This document shows positions 22,302-43,019 of a DNA stretch of 64,000 nucleotides, one piece after another. The stretch is from Halobacterium hubeiense (GTDB taxonomy: Archaea > Halobacteriota > Halobacteria > Halobacteriales > Halobacteriaceae), in NCBI RefSeq assembly GCF_001488575.1, contig NZ_LN831302.1, forward strand, positions 1,240,001 through 1,304,000, given 5' to 3'. The translations under genes and the position numbers were made by a program. The number at the start of each line of letters is the position of its first letter. Position 1 is the stretch's first letter. A model generated the notes under the pieces. The model was not told the origin of the DNA. It ran no database searches and saw only the letters and a program-made list of their open reading frames with translations.

Positions 22302-23045
22302 ATGCGAGTACGCCTTCTGGACGCGACCGACGACCCCGAGGAGCTCATCTGCCAGGGCGCGCGCAACGACTACATGAGCGAGTGGGTGGCCGAACAGGAC
22401 TTCGAGGAAGCGATGGACGGCGTGGAGGGCGACGACGTCGAGGAGCAGAAGGCGAACTTCCTCGCGAAGCTCCTCAAGCGCGGGCACTACGGACCCTTCG
22501 AGCACCCGAGCGCGACGTTCGCCATCGAGGGGATGAGCCGGTCGTGCATGGCCCAGCTCACTCGCCACCGCCACGCGAGCTTCGACGTGCAGTCGATGCG
22601 CTACGTCGCCTTCGACGAGGTGGACCCCGCGGACGTCGAGGACGGCGAGATGGTGGTGACGCCGCCGTCCGCCACGGACCCGGACTGGGTCGGCCGCAAC
22701 CAGAAGGCCGACGACTTCGACGAGGAGGACGTCGAGAAGCGCGAGGAAATCTTCCAGCGGTCGGTCCGCCAGTCCGTCGAGGACTACCAGGAGCTACTGG
22801 AGCTCGGGATGCCGCCTGAGGACGCGCGGTTCGTCCTCCCCATCGGTACCGAGGTGAACGTCGTCGTCACGCTGAACCCGCGGTCGCTGATGCACATCGC
22901 GGACATGCGCGCGGCGGCGGACGCCCAGTGGGAGATTCGCGACCTCACCGAGCAGCTACTGGACCTCGCCGCCGAGTGGTGCCCGCACACCTTCGACTAC
23001 TACGAGGCGGAGATGAAACACCGGAAGAACCGGCTCGCGCCCTAG
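22302..23045 (+). CDS. thyX: FAD-dependent thymidylate synthase
   Basis: A 247-residue ThyX, which makes dTMP from dUMP with methylene-tetrahydrofolate and FAD/NADPH. The diagnostic RHRx7S motif is Arg88-His89-Arg90 through Ser98; the FEH segment (Phe66-Glu67-His68) and the LPIGTEVNVVVTLNPRSLMH region are present. Full length. It is the main folate consumer in the window, while pterin synthesis genes are 11 kb away. It overlaps the convergent GH3 fragment stop by four bases. Confidence 0.96.
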   Translation: MRVRLLDATDDPEELICQGARNDYMSEWVAEQDFEEAMDGVEGDDVEEQKANFLAKLLKRGHYGPFEHPSATFAIEGMSRSCMAQLTRHRHASFDVQSMRYVAFDEVDPADVEDGEMVVTPPSATDPDWVGRNQKADDFDEEDVEKREEIFQRSVRQSVEDYQELLELGMPPEDARFVLPIGTEVNVVVTLNPRSLMHIADMRAAADAQWEIRDLTEQLLDLAAEWCPHTFDYYEAEMKHRKNRLAP

Positions 23046-23887
23046 TCGTCGCCGCGGAGCCGCCCGACGACGCTCGCGGTGACCGCCGCGGCCGCCGCGA
23101 CCACGCCGAACCCGGGCGCGCTCCCGGCCGACTCTGATTCCGTCTCCGTCCCGGTTTCGCTCTCGGTCTCGGTCGTCGTCCCCGCCGACTGTTGGACGGA
23201 CTCTCTGAGTTCGATTCGTTCGGTCGCGTGCACGTCCCGCGAGGACGCCGCAACCGAAACCTCGTACTCGCCGTAGTCGACCGCCCACTCGTCGGCCTCC
23301 TCGTCCCAGTAGCGGAACGCCTCCCGGTCGATGTCCACGGAGACGGTCTCGGTCTCGCCGGCCGCCACGTCCACCTTCTGGAACCCTGCGAGTTCTTTCG
23401 GCGGGCGTTCGACGCTCGAATCGACTGCGCCGACGTACACTTGGACGGCTTCCGCGCCGTCCCGGTCGCCGGTGTTGGTCACGTCCACGCTCACGGTGAG
23501 GCCGTCCTCGGGGGTCGTCGCGGCCCTCGAGACGGACGCGTTCTCGTACTCGAAGTCGGTGTAGCTGAGGCCGTGGCCGAACGGGAACAGCGGCTCCACG
23601 TCGTTCGCGTCGAAGTGCCGGTAGCCCGCGAACACGCCTTCGTCGTAGTGGACGGTGCCGTCCACGCCCGGGAAGCCGCGCGCGCCGTCCGGCAGCGACG
23701 CCACCTCCTGCGGGAGGTAGTCTTCGAGGGATTCAGCGAACGTGACCGGCGTCTTCCCGGAGGGGTTTGTCTCGCCAAATAGGACGTTCGCGAGCGCGCG
23801 GCCGCCTTCCTGCCCCGGGAACCACAGTTGGAGCACGGCGGGCACGGCCGACAGCCACGGCATCGCCACCGGCGACCGAACCGTCAC
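23042..23887 (-). pseudogene. 5'-truncated GH3 beta-glucosidase with PGF-CTERM anchor
   Basis: Only the C-terminal part of a family 3 glycoside hydrolase is left: the end of the GH3 C domain (SPVAMPWL, LQLWFPGQEGGRALANVLFGE, NPSGKTPVTF), the PLFPFGHGLSYT segment, the fibronectin III-like domain and then a Thr/Glu/Ser linker and PGF-CTERM anchor (APGFGVV, hydrophobic helix, Arg-rich end). The N-terminal catalytic TIM barrel carrying the nucleophile, about 400-450 residues, is absent, so no glucosidase activity is expected. The break falls near 23885. The first in-frame ATG at 23887 is not a native start. Confidence 0.8.
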
Positions 23888-23957
23888 CGTCGGAATGGTC
23901 GGCGCGTTCCTCGAAGACTACGAGGCGACGAACGTGGTGCTGCGCGACGGCGAGTGA
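23888..23957 (+). pseudogene. Remnant of a plus-strand coding 3' end
   Basis: From about 23886 a plus-strand frame ends in MVGAFLEDYEATNVVLRDGE and TGA at 23955. It looks like a real protein C-terminus, but the frame upstream is antisense to the GH3 fragment. The native gene 5' end appears replaced at the same junction that truncates GH3. The family is not recognised. Confidence 0.4.
23895..23913. repeat. 19-bp direct repeat, copy 1
   Basis: ATGGTCGGCGCGTTCCTCG; identical to the copy at 24209-24227. It starts about ten bases after the point where GH3 homology ends. The two copies lie on either side of tRNA-Glu. Confidence 0.7.
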
Positions 23958-24088
23958 ACGCGCCGACAGCCCGGCACCCGGTTGCGACCGCCCGAACGGA
24001 GCACCCCCGACGCGTGTGTGGGACTCTGCCAGCGCGACGCCGAGACGAAACCGTTATTTGTACCTCGCGGCTACGAAGGAGTGGACGC

Positions 24089-24163
24089 GCTCCGTTGGTG
24101 TAGTCCGGCCAATCATCTTGCCCTCTCACGGCAAGGACCAGGGTTCGAATCCCTGACGGAGCA
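24089..24163 (+). tRNA. tRNA-Glu (anticodon CTC)
   Basis: GCTCCGT (24089-24095) pairs with ACGGAGC (24156-24162), with discriminator A. The anticodon stem TTGCC/GGCAA holds loop CTCTCAC, anticodon CTC, reading GAG. The T arm CAGGG-TTCGAAT-CCCTG is canonical. No intron. CCA is not encoded. tRNA genes are common integration sites, and the flanking sequences here look disturbed. Confidence 0.97.
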
Positions 24164-24208
24164 CTCCCTTCCTCTCGCCGGTTCCGAAGTGGTCAGCCGC
24201 GGCTTCTG

Positions 24209-24227
24209 ATGGTCGGCGCGTTCCTCG
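24209..24227. repeat. 19-bp direct repeat, copy 2
   Basis: Same sequence as 23895-23913, located 45 bases downstream of the tRNA. It also reads MVGAFL in the same strand sense, followed by unrelated sequence ending in a stop after about 26 codons, so this copy is not part of a gene. Confidence 0.7.
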
Positions 24228-24415
24228 TGAGCGTCGCGGTCAGGGCGTGTTTCGAGTGGGTGACGTGGGTAGGTAACCGAATCACCTGACCGGGGAGTCG
24301 CTTCTCGTGGTCGCACTTAGACTGGGGGTCGAATATGTTCCCACGAACCTCCTTTTGGGTCGTCCGGCTAGGCGGTGGTAGACCGCGACTCTCGCGAGCC
24401 CTCTCCACCAAACGC

Positions 24416-25078
24416 ATGCCATACGTGAAACTCAGTATTACCATCCCGGATCTGGTCTGGATGAGCGACCTCTCACAGGCGTTCCCCGAGACGGTGTTCC
24501 GCGTCACCGCCGCCACCGTGAACGACGACGTCGGCGTCGCGCACATCGACGTTCACGGCGAAGAGAGCACGGCCGTCGTGGAGTCGTTCCGCGACTACGA
24601 CGCCGTGACCGACCTCACGGTGCTGGACGACGGGCCGAAGGCGACCCGGGTCCAACTCGAAACCACGTCCCCGCTCATGCTGCGGTCGATACAGGACTCC
24701 GGCGTGCCGCTGCAACTGCCGTTCGAGGTCCAGGACGGCGAACTGCTCTTGGAGCTCACCGTCCCGTCGGGCACGATGACGGACCTGACCGAGACGCTCG
24801 GCGACTACGGCATCCCCTACACCGTCGAACGCGTCAGCCAAGACACGGACTCCGGGTCGCTTCTGACCGAGCGCCAAGCGTGGGTGCTCGACAGGGCCGT
24901 CGAGCGAGGGTACTACGACACGCCCCGCGAGACGACGCTCGCCGAACTCGCCGACGACCTCGGGATGGCGAAGTCGACGTGCAGCGAACTCCTCCACCGT
25001 GCCGAGGGACACGTCATCAAGGACTACCACACCGACACCGAGACCACCGAGACGGAGACGCCCGCGCTCTCGGACTGA
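24416..25078 (+). CDS. Bat-type HTH transcriptional regulator
   Basis: A 220-residue protein of the bacterio-opsin activator (HTH_10) family. The N-terminal part is a beta-rich domain with a VKLSITIPD start; the C-terminal HTH is LTERQAWVLDRAVERGYYDTPRETTLAELADDLGMAKSTCSELLHRAEG. ATG at 24416 replaces an earlier in-frame start at 24335. Ligand is unknown. A second family member lies at 27339, with a peroxiredoxin and a PAS kinase between them. Confidence 0.9.
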   Translation: MPYVKLSITIPDLVWMSDLSQAFPETVFRVTAATVNDDVGVAHIDVHGEESTAVVESFRDYDAVTDLTVLDDGPKATRVQLETTSPLMLRSIQDSGVPLQLPFEVQDGELLLELTVPSGTMTDLTETLGDYGIPYTVERVSQDTDSGSLLTERQAWVLDRAVERGYYDTPRETTLAELADDLGMAKSTCSELLHRAEGHVIKDYHTDTETTETETPALSD

Positions 25079-41072: not shown

Positions 41073-43019
41073 ATGGGATCAGAGCAGTCTCTCGAGCGCG
41101 ACGTCCACGTCCGCGCTCGGAACGTCGGCGGCATCGACGAGGCGGAAGTGTCGCTTCCCCCGGGCGTGACCGTGCTGACCGGGCGGAACGCGACCAACCG
41201 AACGTCGTTCCTGCAGTCGATTATGGCCGGGCTCGGCAGCGAGCGCGCCACCCTGAAAGGCGACACCGACGAGGGCGAAGTCGAACTCCGCGTGGACGGC
41301 GAGACGTACACGCGAACACTCACGCGCAACGGCGACACCGTCGTCTACGGCGGCGACCCCTACCTCGACGACCCCGCGGTCGCCGACCAGTTCGCGTTCC
41401 TCCTGGAGAACACGGAAGTCCGACGCGCCGTGGCGCGCGGCGACGACCTCCGGGAGATCATCATGGACCCGGTGGACACCGACGAGATCGAAGCGCAGAT
41501 TCGGGACCTCGAGAACGAGAAGCGCGACCTCGACGACCAGATAGAGGAGCTGGAGCGAATCGAGGACGAACTTCCGGAGCTGGAAGCCGAGAAGCGCGAC
41601 CTCGAAGCCGACATCGAGGACGCCCGCGAGGAGCTCGCCGATGTCGAGGACGAAATCGAGTCGCGTGACGTCAGCCTCGAACAGAGCCGCTCGCAGAAGG
41701 AAGCCATCGAGGAGGCCTTCGAGGCCCTGCGGGACGCCCGCGCCGACCTCGAAGACGTCGAGTTCGAACTGGAGACCGAACGGCAGACCCTCGAGGACCT
41801 CCGCGAGGAGCGCGACCGACTCGAATCAGAGCTGGCGGACGCCGACGAGCACGACGAGAACCCCGACCAGCTCGCCGGCCGCATCGACGAACTGCGCGAG
41901 CGCAAGCGCGCGCTCGACGACACCATCAGCCAGCTCGGCAGCGTCATCAGCTTCAACGAGGAGATGCTCGACGGCGAGGGGCTGGACCTCGACGAGTTCG
42001 GGGACGACTCGAACGCCGACCCGACCGAGCAGCTGCTGGACGAGACCGAGGACGTGGTCTGCTGGACGTGCGGGTCGGAGGTCGAACGCGACCGCATCGA
42101 GGGCACCGTCGACCACCTCCGCGAGCTGCGCGCGGAGAAGCTCGACGAGCGCAGCGACCTCGACGACCAGATAGAGGAGCTGTCGGCGACGCGCTCGGAG
42201 ATTCAGCGCCAGCAGCGCGAGCGCGAGCGCACCCAGCGACGCCTCTCGGAGGTCGAGAGCGAAATCGAAGCCACGGAGGGACGCATCGAGTCGCTGGAGG
42301 AGTCGCTGGCGGACCAGCAGGAGGAAGTAAAGCGGCTGGAGGCCGAGACCGAGGACGCCGGCACGGGCGGCGACTACGACGAGGTGCTGGAGCTCCACCG
42401 GGAGTCCAACGAGATCGAACTGCGCATCGAGCGCCTCGAGAGCGACCTCGCGGACGTCGAGGCCGAAATCGAGGACCACGAGGAGACGCTCCGGGAGCGC
42501 GACGACCTCTCGGAGCGCCGCGAGGAAATCGACGACGAGCTCACCGACCTCCGCACGAAAGTCGACCGCATCGAGGCGGAGGCCGTCGAGGAGTTCAACG
42601 ACCACATGGAGTCCGTGCTCGCGGTGCTGGAGTACGACAACATCGAGCGCATCTGGGTGGAGCGCCGCGAGCGCGAGGTCCGCGAGGGCCGCCGCAAGGT
42701 CGAGAAGACGACCTTCGACCTCCACGTCATCCGCGCGACCGACGACGGCACCTCCTACCGCGACACTATCGACCACCTCTCGGAGAGCGAGCGCGAGGTG
42801 ACCGGCCTCGTGTTCGCGCTGGCGGGCTACCTCGTCCACGAGGTCTACGAGGACGTCCCGTTCATGGTGCTGGACTCGCTAGAGGCCATCGACTCCGACC
42901 GCATCGCGCGCGTCGTCGACTACTTCAGCGACTACGCTGACTACCTCGTCGTCGCCCTCCTCCCGGAGGACGCGCAGGCGCTCTCCGAGGAGTACACGTA
43001 CGTCGAGCAGATCGACTGA
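41073..43019 (+). CDS. Archaea-specific SMC-related protein (Sph/ASRP)
   Basis: A 648-residue protein with Rad50/SMC shape: N-terminal ATPase part (1-150), a long antiparallel coiled coil (about 160-320 and 340-510), a hinge CWTC (Cys330/Cys333) like a zinc hook, and a C-terminal part. The ATPase motifs are altered: the P-loop is GRNATNRTS (37-45) with Arg instead of Lys, the signature is LSESER (569-574) and Walker B is FMVLDSLEAID (597-607) with Ser instead of the catalytic Glu. This pattern is known for archaea-specific SMC-related proteins. Probably scaffolds DNA or shape factors; it follows rdfA. Confidence 0.88.
   Translation: MGSEQSLERDVHVRARNVGGIDEAEVSLPPGVTVLTGRNATNRTSFLQSIMAGLGSERATLKGDTDEGEVELRVDGETYTRTLTRNGDTVVYGGDPYLDDPAVADQFAFLLENTEVRRAVARGDDLREIIMDPVDTDEIEAQIRDLENEKRDLDDQIEELERIEDELPELEAEKRDLEADIEDAREELADVEDEIESRDVSLEQSRSQKEAIEEAFEALRDARADLEDVEFELETERQTLEDLREERDRLESELADADEHDENPDQLAGRIDELRERKRALDDTISQLGSVISFNEEMLDGEGLDLDEFGDDSNADPTEQLLDETEDVVCWTCGSEVERDRIEGTVDHLRELRAEKLDERSDLDDQIEELSATRSEIQRQQRERERTQRRLSEVESEIEATEGRIESLEESLADQQEEVKRLEAETEDAGTGGDYDEVLELHRESNEIELRIERLESDLADVEAEIEDHEETLRERDDLSERREEIDDELTDLRTKVDRIEAEAVEEFNDHMESVLAVLEYDNIERIWVERREREVREGRRKVEKTTFDLHVIRATDDGTSYRDTIDHLSESEREVTGLVFALAGYLVHEVYEDVPFMVLDSLEAIDSDRIARVVDYFSDYADYLVVALLPEDAQALSEEYTYVEQID

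Follow-up and report, generated by a model that had tools for sequence, protein, structure and literature searches.

Genes and repeats at the thyX-tRNA-Glu(CTC) locus

We analysed a 64,000-nucleotide stretch of the Halobacterium hubeiense genome (the whole of which we call the window), in which an intact tRNA-Glu(CTC) gene lies downstream of thyX and of two gene remnants and is flanked by a 19-bp direct repeat. The features of the locus are as follows.

22302-23045, + strand: thyX (flavin-dependent thymidylate synthase; Pfam Thy1, 7.4e-61), the left anchor of the locus
23042-23876, - strand: GH3 glycosidase remnant, C-terminal part (Pfam GH3_C, profile positions 119-200 of 200, plus an Fn3-like domain)
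23868-23876, no strand: probable deletion junction in the short homology ACCGGCGAC, which in the sister genome G011 is exact at the GH3 end and has one mismatch at the TrmB end
23868-23957, + strand: 3' remnant of a TrmB-type regulator gene, comprising its final 29 codons and the stop (intact 353-aa homologues in G011 and G009)
23895-23913, + strand: repeat copy 1, native TrmB coding sequence (G009 and G011 each share 16 of its 19 bases)
24089-24164, + strand: tRNA-Glu(CTC), intact (ARAGORN; Rfam tRNA, 53.5 bits)
24209-24227, + strand: repeat copy 2; relatives have no homologous DNA at the corresponding place

The initial annotation had described 19-bp direct repeats around tRNA-Glu at the site of a gene truncation, with one copy continuing a coding 3' end and the other in unrelated sequence, and each of these observations was borne out. 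The 19-mer ATGGTCGGCGCGTTCCTCG is present in two exact copies on the plus strand, at 23895 and 24209, with a start-to-start spacing of 314 bp; identity extends over exactly 19 bp, as the adjoining base differs at both ends. The open reading frame at 23042-23887, which extends to a GTG at 23887, retains just the end of the GH3 C-terminal domain together with the Fn3-like domain, and both the N-terminal catalytic domain and the start of the gene are missing. Positions 23868-23957, which include copy 1, encode TGDRTVTVGMVGAFLEDYEATNVVLRDGE followed by a stop codon. The DNA around copy 2 (24168-24430) is without a homologue beside tRNA-Glu(CTC) in 19 other loci.

A deletion of about 3.05 kb probably fused the GH3 and TrmB remnants

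The window region was searched against 59 genomes, and two of these from the same genus, G009 and G011, were used as sister references. In G009, thyX is followed by a complete GH3 gene on the minus strand (899 aa, with GH3 N- and C-terminal Pfam domains), which stands back to back with a complete gene for a 353-aa TrmB-type regulator on the plus strand, and the tRNA-Glu gene comes next. G011 has its GH3 region and TrmB gene in the same places (Pfam Regulator_TrmB, 1.3e-39, in the TrmB protein), together with a further ORF before the tRNA that resembles the transcription factor B of the corresponding interval in G003, where the protein matches Pfam TFIIB. The G011 GH3 gene is full length, yet no single ORF spans it and it may be frameshifted, so that G009 was taken as the clean reference for the ancestral locus. 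The intact 353-aa TrmB genes of G011 and G009 end in ...TVGAVGAFLEDYEATNVVLRDGE or ...SVGAVGAFLEDYEATNVVLRDGD; they supply the full gene for which the initial annotation had recommended a search, and the protein tails at two loci of other families (L202 and L204) differ from their GAFLEDYEA stretch. The possibility that the window shows a normal arrangement conserved across species is contradicted by the same genomes, since both genes are complete in G009 and, in G011, TrmB is complete and GH3 full-length.

At the DNA level, the end of thyX and the GH3 remnant are 82-84% identical to G009 and G011 up to about 23876, and after a gap the TrmB tail and the tRNA align again to both, in collinear order. 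In the window alignment the GH3 side runs to 23876 and the TrmB side begins at about 23863, with 23868-23876 common to both. Homology common to the two parental ends is present in both sisters: G011 has ACCGGCGAC on the GH3 side and ACTGGCGAC on the TrmB side, and G009 has ACCGGCGCT and ACCGGCGAA, respectively, with 7 bases shared. The ancestral continuous version of the stretch between these ends is present in both genomes, measuring 3,066 bp in G011 and about 3,047 bp in G009. By this comparison, one deletion of about 3.05 kb removed the front parts of both divergent genes. Lost with it were the GH3 front, which encodes the catalytic N-terminal domain, the promoter region common to both genes, and TrmB except for its last 29 codons. 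Both remnants are still open, which suggests that the deletion is young. H. hubeiense keeps other GH3-like genes, with open frames of 730, 851, and 699 aa, so the loss would be bearable on the glycosidase side; no close TrmB of the same type was found in this genome, where the nearest one shares 28% identity across residues 13-348.

Comparison of the loci shows an ancestor that carried thyX, a GH3 gene, a divergent TrmB-type regulator gene, and then tRNA-Glu(CTC). A single event between two short ACCGGCGAC-type matches fused the C-terminal part of GH3 to the end of TrmB and, in doing so, took the promoter region along with the front parts of GH3 and TrmB. Microhomology end joining or replication slippage would be the likely mechanism, and the scar is of the type that we take to be a microhomology-mediated or slippage deletion, that is, a deletion between short homologies. 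The earlier suggestion of a recombination scar therefore holds as far as a deletion of about 3.05 kb is present; the 19-bp repeats did not make the scar, since the junction lies to the left of copy 1, which itself belongs to the native coding sequence of the remaining TrmB end. Taken alone, the event amounts to the ordinary loss of a glycosidase gene and a neighbouring regulator in one species.

The surroundings of the deletion vary between species. The end of thyX lies upstream of tRNA-Glu(CTC) in all 18 placed loci, which comprise the window (22302-24164) and 17 orthologous loci drawn from L038-L056, with G005 left out. The interval between thyX and the tRNA measures 90 to 5,294 bp in these loci, which indicates that gains and losses are common at this place, and its content differs in many species (GH3 and TrmB, transcription factor B, others). 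There is thus a variable spot on the 5' side of the tRNA gene, besides the usual one on the 3' side.

Frequency of shared 19-mers in the H. hubeiense genome

A third exact copy of the 19-mer was not found in the H. hubeiense genome (3.13 Mb); 13 sites match it with at most two mismatches, both copies included, and the same pattern read backwards, as a control, gave no match there. Dinucleotide shuffles of the window gave a mean of 0.15 matches at up to three mismatches, compared with 5 observed, though the coding DNA of H. hubeiense is more repetitive than such shuffled sequence. Across 400 kb of the chromosome we counted six exact, non-overlapping direct repeats of at least 19 bp within 400 bp, which is roughly one in every 64 kb. 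Two of the six repeat the end of an adjacent tRNA; the other four, judged by their letters alone, are a 50-bp repeat resembling rRNA promoters, a triplet run, and two plain repeats. When the DNA was cut into 300-bp tiles, 116 of 870,540 pairs shared a 19-mer (1.3e-4), compared with 6 of 2,580 neighbouring pairs (2.3e-3). For about 426 neighbouring pairs, the expectation per 64 kb is thus about 0.06 at the random rate and 1 at the local rate, the latter including repeats with a known cause. A species-wide collection contains the 19-mer in no fewer than 120 stretches, and 78 of the 80 listed bear bacterial titles. The shared 19-mer is therefore unusual by the measure of shuffles, and weakly so by the genome's own habits.

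Other repeats were met in the course of this survey. An exact 29-bp direct repeat lies at 41524-41552 and 42154-42182 of the window, 630 bp apart, inside an ORF (41073-43019) that by sequence impression encodes a putative SMC-type coiled-coil protein. Elsewhere in the genome, L209:13776-13958 holds a 50-bp exact direct repeat, 133 bp apart and about 1.8 kb upstream of tRNA-Ala(TGC), which we presume to be akin to tandem rRNA promoters.

Origin of the two repeat copies

Copy 1 starts 19 bp to the right of the last junction base, within the TrmB tail (VGMVGAFLEDYEA). At this position G009 has GCCGTCGGCGCGTTCCTCG and G011 has GCGGTCGGTGCGTTCCTCG, each identical at 16 of 19 bases; copy 1 is therefore native sequence, and neither a breakpoint nor an attachment site. 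Its first codon is ATG, as in copy 2, and the sisters have GCG and GCC. Copy 2 starts 45 bp past the tRNA gene. Direct comparison of 24168-24430 with 19 other loci of the same tRNA region returned nothing at E 0.01 in 14 of them and a single match of 16-36 bp in each of the other five, the one in G009 being 16 bp of the TrmB tail. In a search of 293 genomes in which two candidates were scored per genome, the matches listed were short pieces at unrelated places, most of them on 24206-24251. Elsewhere in the H. hubeiense genome, two further weak matches were obtained at E up to 1; the listed one spans 33 bp. Searches with 23850-24430 gave no match in phages, and the best places in 14 plasmid records were pieces of 69-89 bp over the tRNA. 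Copy 2 was also considered as a piece of a membrane-protein gene, an idea with little support, the longest open frame over the match being hydrophobic in 4 of the 19 matching loci inspected and the longest frame not always being the true one. Among seven H. hubeiense proteins chosen downstream of the tRNA, two signal-transduction proteins have relatives, 37-43% identical, among 84 downstream proteins taken from the other loci. This is no evidence of shared gene order; downstream genes are common to other pairs of species, for instance G001 with G010 and G011 with G012.

On this reading, copy 1 would be the regular coding sequence at the TrmB 3' end, and copy 2, in the unrelated DNA that follows the tRNA, would happen to resemble it over a short length. 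In a GC-rich genome with codon bias, such a match between two words is most likely coincidental, and it would have had no part in the deletion. We consider it probable that a deletion between short homologies and an unrelated, chance-like 19-bp repeat stand here side by side. Against it, the rate for random tiles, about 0.06 per window, makes pure chance somewhat unlikely, the ATG codon that both copies have and the sisters lack also counts against chance, and the figure of roughly one local repeat per 64 kb takes in repeats that have a cause. A tentative alternative, to which we give a clearly smaller share of belief, is template switching in the repair of a break around the tRNA: it would have copied 19 bp of the TrmB 3' end into the place of copy 2, or converted copy 1 to the sequence of copy 2, perhaps as part of the event that caused the deletion. 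Copying in either direction would better explain the exact identity, with its lineage-specific ATG codon, and it fits both the short distance of 314 bp and the excess of shared 19-mers between neighbouring over random tiles. However, the homology stops at 19 bp on either side, and the stretch around copy 2 has short matches at many unrelated haloarchaeal sites, which marks the copy 2 word as one of a common kind. Between these two accounts we favour chance, as somewhat more than twice as probable as a short copying event. Direct repeats that enclose a short segment, with a weak inverted repeat at 24224-24241 and 24381-24398, would also be expected of an IS or MITE remnant with a 19-bp target duplication around the tRNA region. 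We regard this as extremely unlikely, because the enclosed DNA is mostly ancestral (the TrmB end, the tRNA promoter, and the tRNA follow in the same order in G009), only 44 bp after the tRNA are unmatched between the copies, and the genome holds only the two weak matches to 24168-24430 mentioned above.

tRNA-Glu(CTC) as an integration site

The initial annotation had also read the repeats as the footprint of an excised or decayed element at the tRNA, that is, of a lost integrated element that used tRNA-Glu(CTC) as its attachment site. The same tRNA gene is indeed an integration site in relatives, where an integrase-type gene lies at most 250 bp away in 5 of the 18 placed loci; G002, G003, G008, and G024 have a Phage_integrase domain, and G025 has a 220-aa fragment just under the Pfam cut-off. 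True duplications of the tRNA end exist at this gene too: in G024 a 43-bp copy lies 3.1 kb away with an integrase gene between, and in G011 a 23-bp copy lies at a distance of about 100 bp. The G024 case (L056:1582-4780) is a compact integrated element with the complete tRNA-Glu(CTC), the integrase gene, and the 43-bp copy of the tRNA end. The repeats of the window look different from these duplications, as the 19-mer is without any tRNA sequence. The end of tRNA-Glu(CTC) is not duplicated in the window or the genome, the tRNA-Glu(TTC) gene at two mismatches excepted. Integrase domain PF00589 has nine matches in the whole genome, none in the window, the nearest being 77 kb from the tRNA, and Pfam searches of seven ORFs around the tRNA revealed no integrase or element genes between or beside the repeats. 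Occupied versions of the site were seen in relatives, and among these none has an element bounded by the 19-mers. On this sequence evidence a tRNA-site footprint appears disfavoured as the origin of the 19-bp repeats, and we give it very little credence.

A hairpin family downstream of haloarchaeal tRNA genes

Hairpin elements directly 3' of tRNA genes occur across the order of haloarchaea and are absent from the window. They came to our attention through the tRNA-end repeat in G011, a background repeat at tRNA-Val (L222), and a 16-bp repeat beside tRNA-Pro (L225). Examples are located as follows.

L222:15309-15533, H. hubeiense: hairpin example
L225:6891-7115, H. hubeiense: hairpin example
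L049:6659-6863, G011: hairpin example
L235-L266 and L267-L316: further loci

Each element has a fixed core, either GCGCGCAGCGnnGCGAGCACGTC or a longer form of it, and a stem in which the 3' strand copies the end of the same host tRNA and the 5' strand is its inverted T-arm. The core pattern (gap 0-20) is present in 113 of 195 haloarchaeal genomes, and the reversed control gave 0 in each row. We found that 29 of 32 fetched pattern loci lie no more than 400 bp 3' of a same-strand tRNA gene, and in 24 of these the distance is at most 103 bp; no tRNA gene was found near the core at the other three. Host copying was assessed in 30 loci, these 29 and the one in G011. The direct copy scored on average 18.2 against its own tRNA and 8.6 (sd 0.5) against re-dealt tRNAs, and the inverted copy 10.0 and 7.3 (sd 0.3), with 0 of 5000 permutations reaching the observed value in either case; in four loci (L237, L255, L262, and L264) the direct copy fails to beat all other tRNAs. 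In an alignment of 25 sequences, the named stem pairs in 91.2% of cells, compared with 20-38% when slid. The covariation score of this alignment was 0.260, against 0.132 (sd 0.013) in shuffles, in tests weakened by the relatedness of the sequences and of the T-arms; the count of pairs with double changes was not beyond shuffles (79 of 500 reach it). RNAalifold, unaided, recovered no more than the nine inner pairs. Folded singly, four copies gave better structures than their shuffles (z -2.5 to -5.6); one of the four (L219) is not a model match.

With an E limit of 0.001, a covariance model detected between 4 and 34 copies per genome in 19 of 20 genomes, including 15 in H. hubeiense, with at most 150 candidates scored per genome. 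Hairpin copies are often in tandem. In 49 loci, 30 given by the search tool and 19 picked from its list, 56 of 64 model matches lie within 600 bp 3' of a tRNA and 8 do not. Two duplications of a tRNA end begin 4 bases inside the tRNA, one of them beside tRNA-Glu(TTC). There, at L219:14876-15097 of the H. hubeiense genome, a second copy of 20 bp from the 3' part of the tRNA lies about 130 bp further downstream, in surroundings that resemble a hairpin; lacking a model match at E 0.01, this locus was left out of the family. Three viral contigs match the hairpin core, so that the core is not strictly confined to the neighbourhood of tRNAs; no tRNA was found on them, the model matches them in part (E 3.8e-10, 6.1e-07, and 1.1e-04), and they too were left out. 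The first of these partial matches, at L318:10852-10888, has the exact core in a different hairpin. A plasmid record of Haloarcula halophila matches 39% of one hairpin element. Rfam, on the hairpin loci tried, gave only tRNA and below-threshold matches, and a limited search by words and letters of open-licence literature, with passages of PMC3119063 and PMC8371274, returned no recognised description of the element. The family may be a miniature mobile element that uses tRNA ends, or an RNA of the tRNA trailer.

The example at the orthologous tRNA in G011 would allow the window's tRNA-Glu(CTC) to be a vacated site of such an element, the unique DNA with copy 2 having been left or filled in at its loss. 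We hold this to be highly improbable. The model has no match at the tRNA-Glu(CTC) of H. hubeiense or of G009. Its matches in the window, which count against the integrated-element footprint, are weak, the best (E 0.12) falling over the tRNA itself. The window case is useful as a contrast, as real tRNA-end duplications of haloarchaea belong in part to the hairpin family. If the family is confirmed, it would pose a testable question, namely by what route such hairpins reach so many tRNA genes or in what way they influence the transcripts of these genes.

Comparison with known systems

Mobile elements integrate into tRNA genes by means of tyrosine recombinases; PMC8371274 deals with attachment sites and tRNA genes. 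The locus resembles such systems in that it adjoins a tRNA gene used for integration in relatives; it differs in that the tRNA end is unduplicated, the nearest integrase is distant, and the repeats lie outside the tRNA. With deletions between short homologies it shares a junction that lies in a short sequence found at both ends of the lost stretch, and flanks that keep their order. Against that class nothing here is special, apart from the fact that the tails of two divergent genes have been fused.
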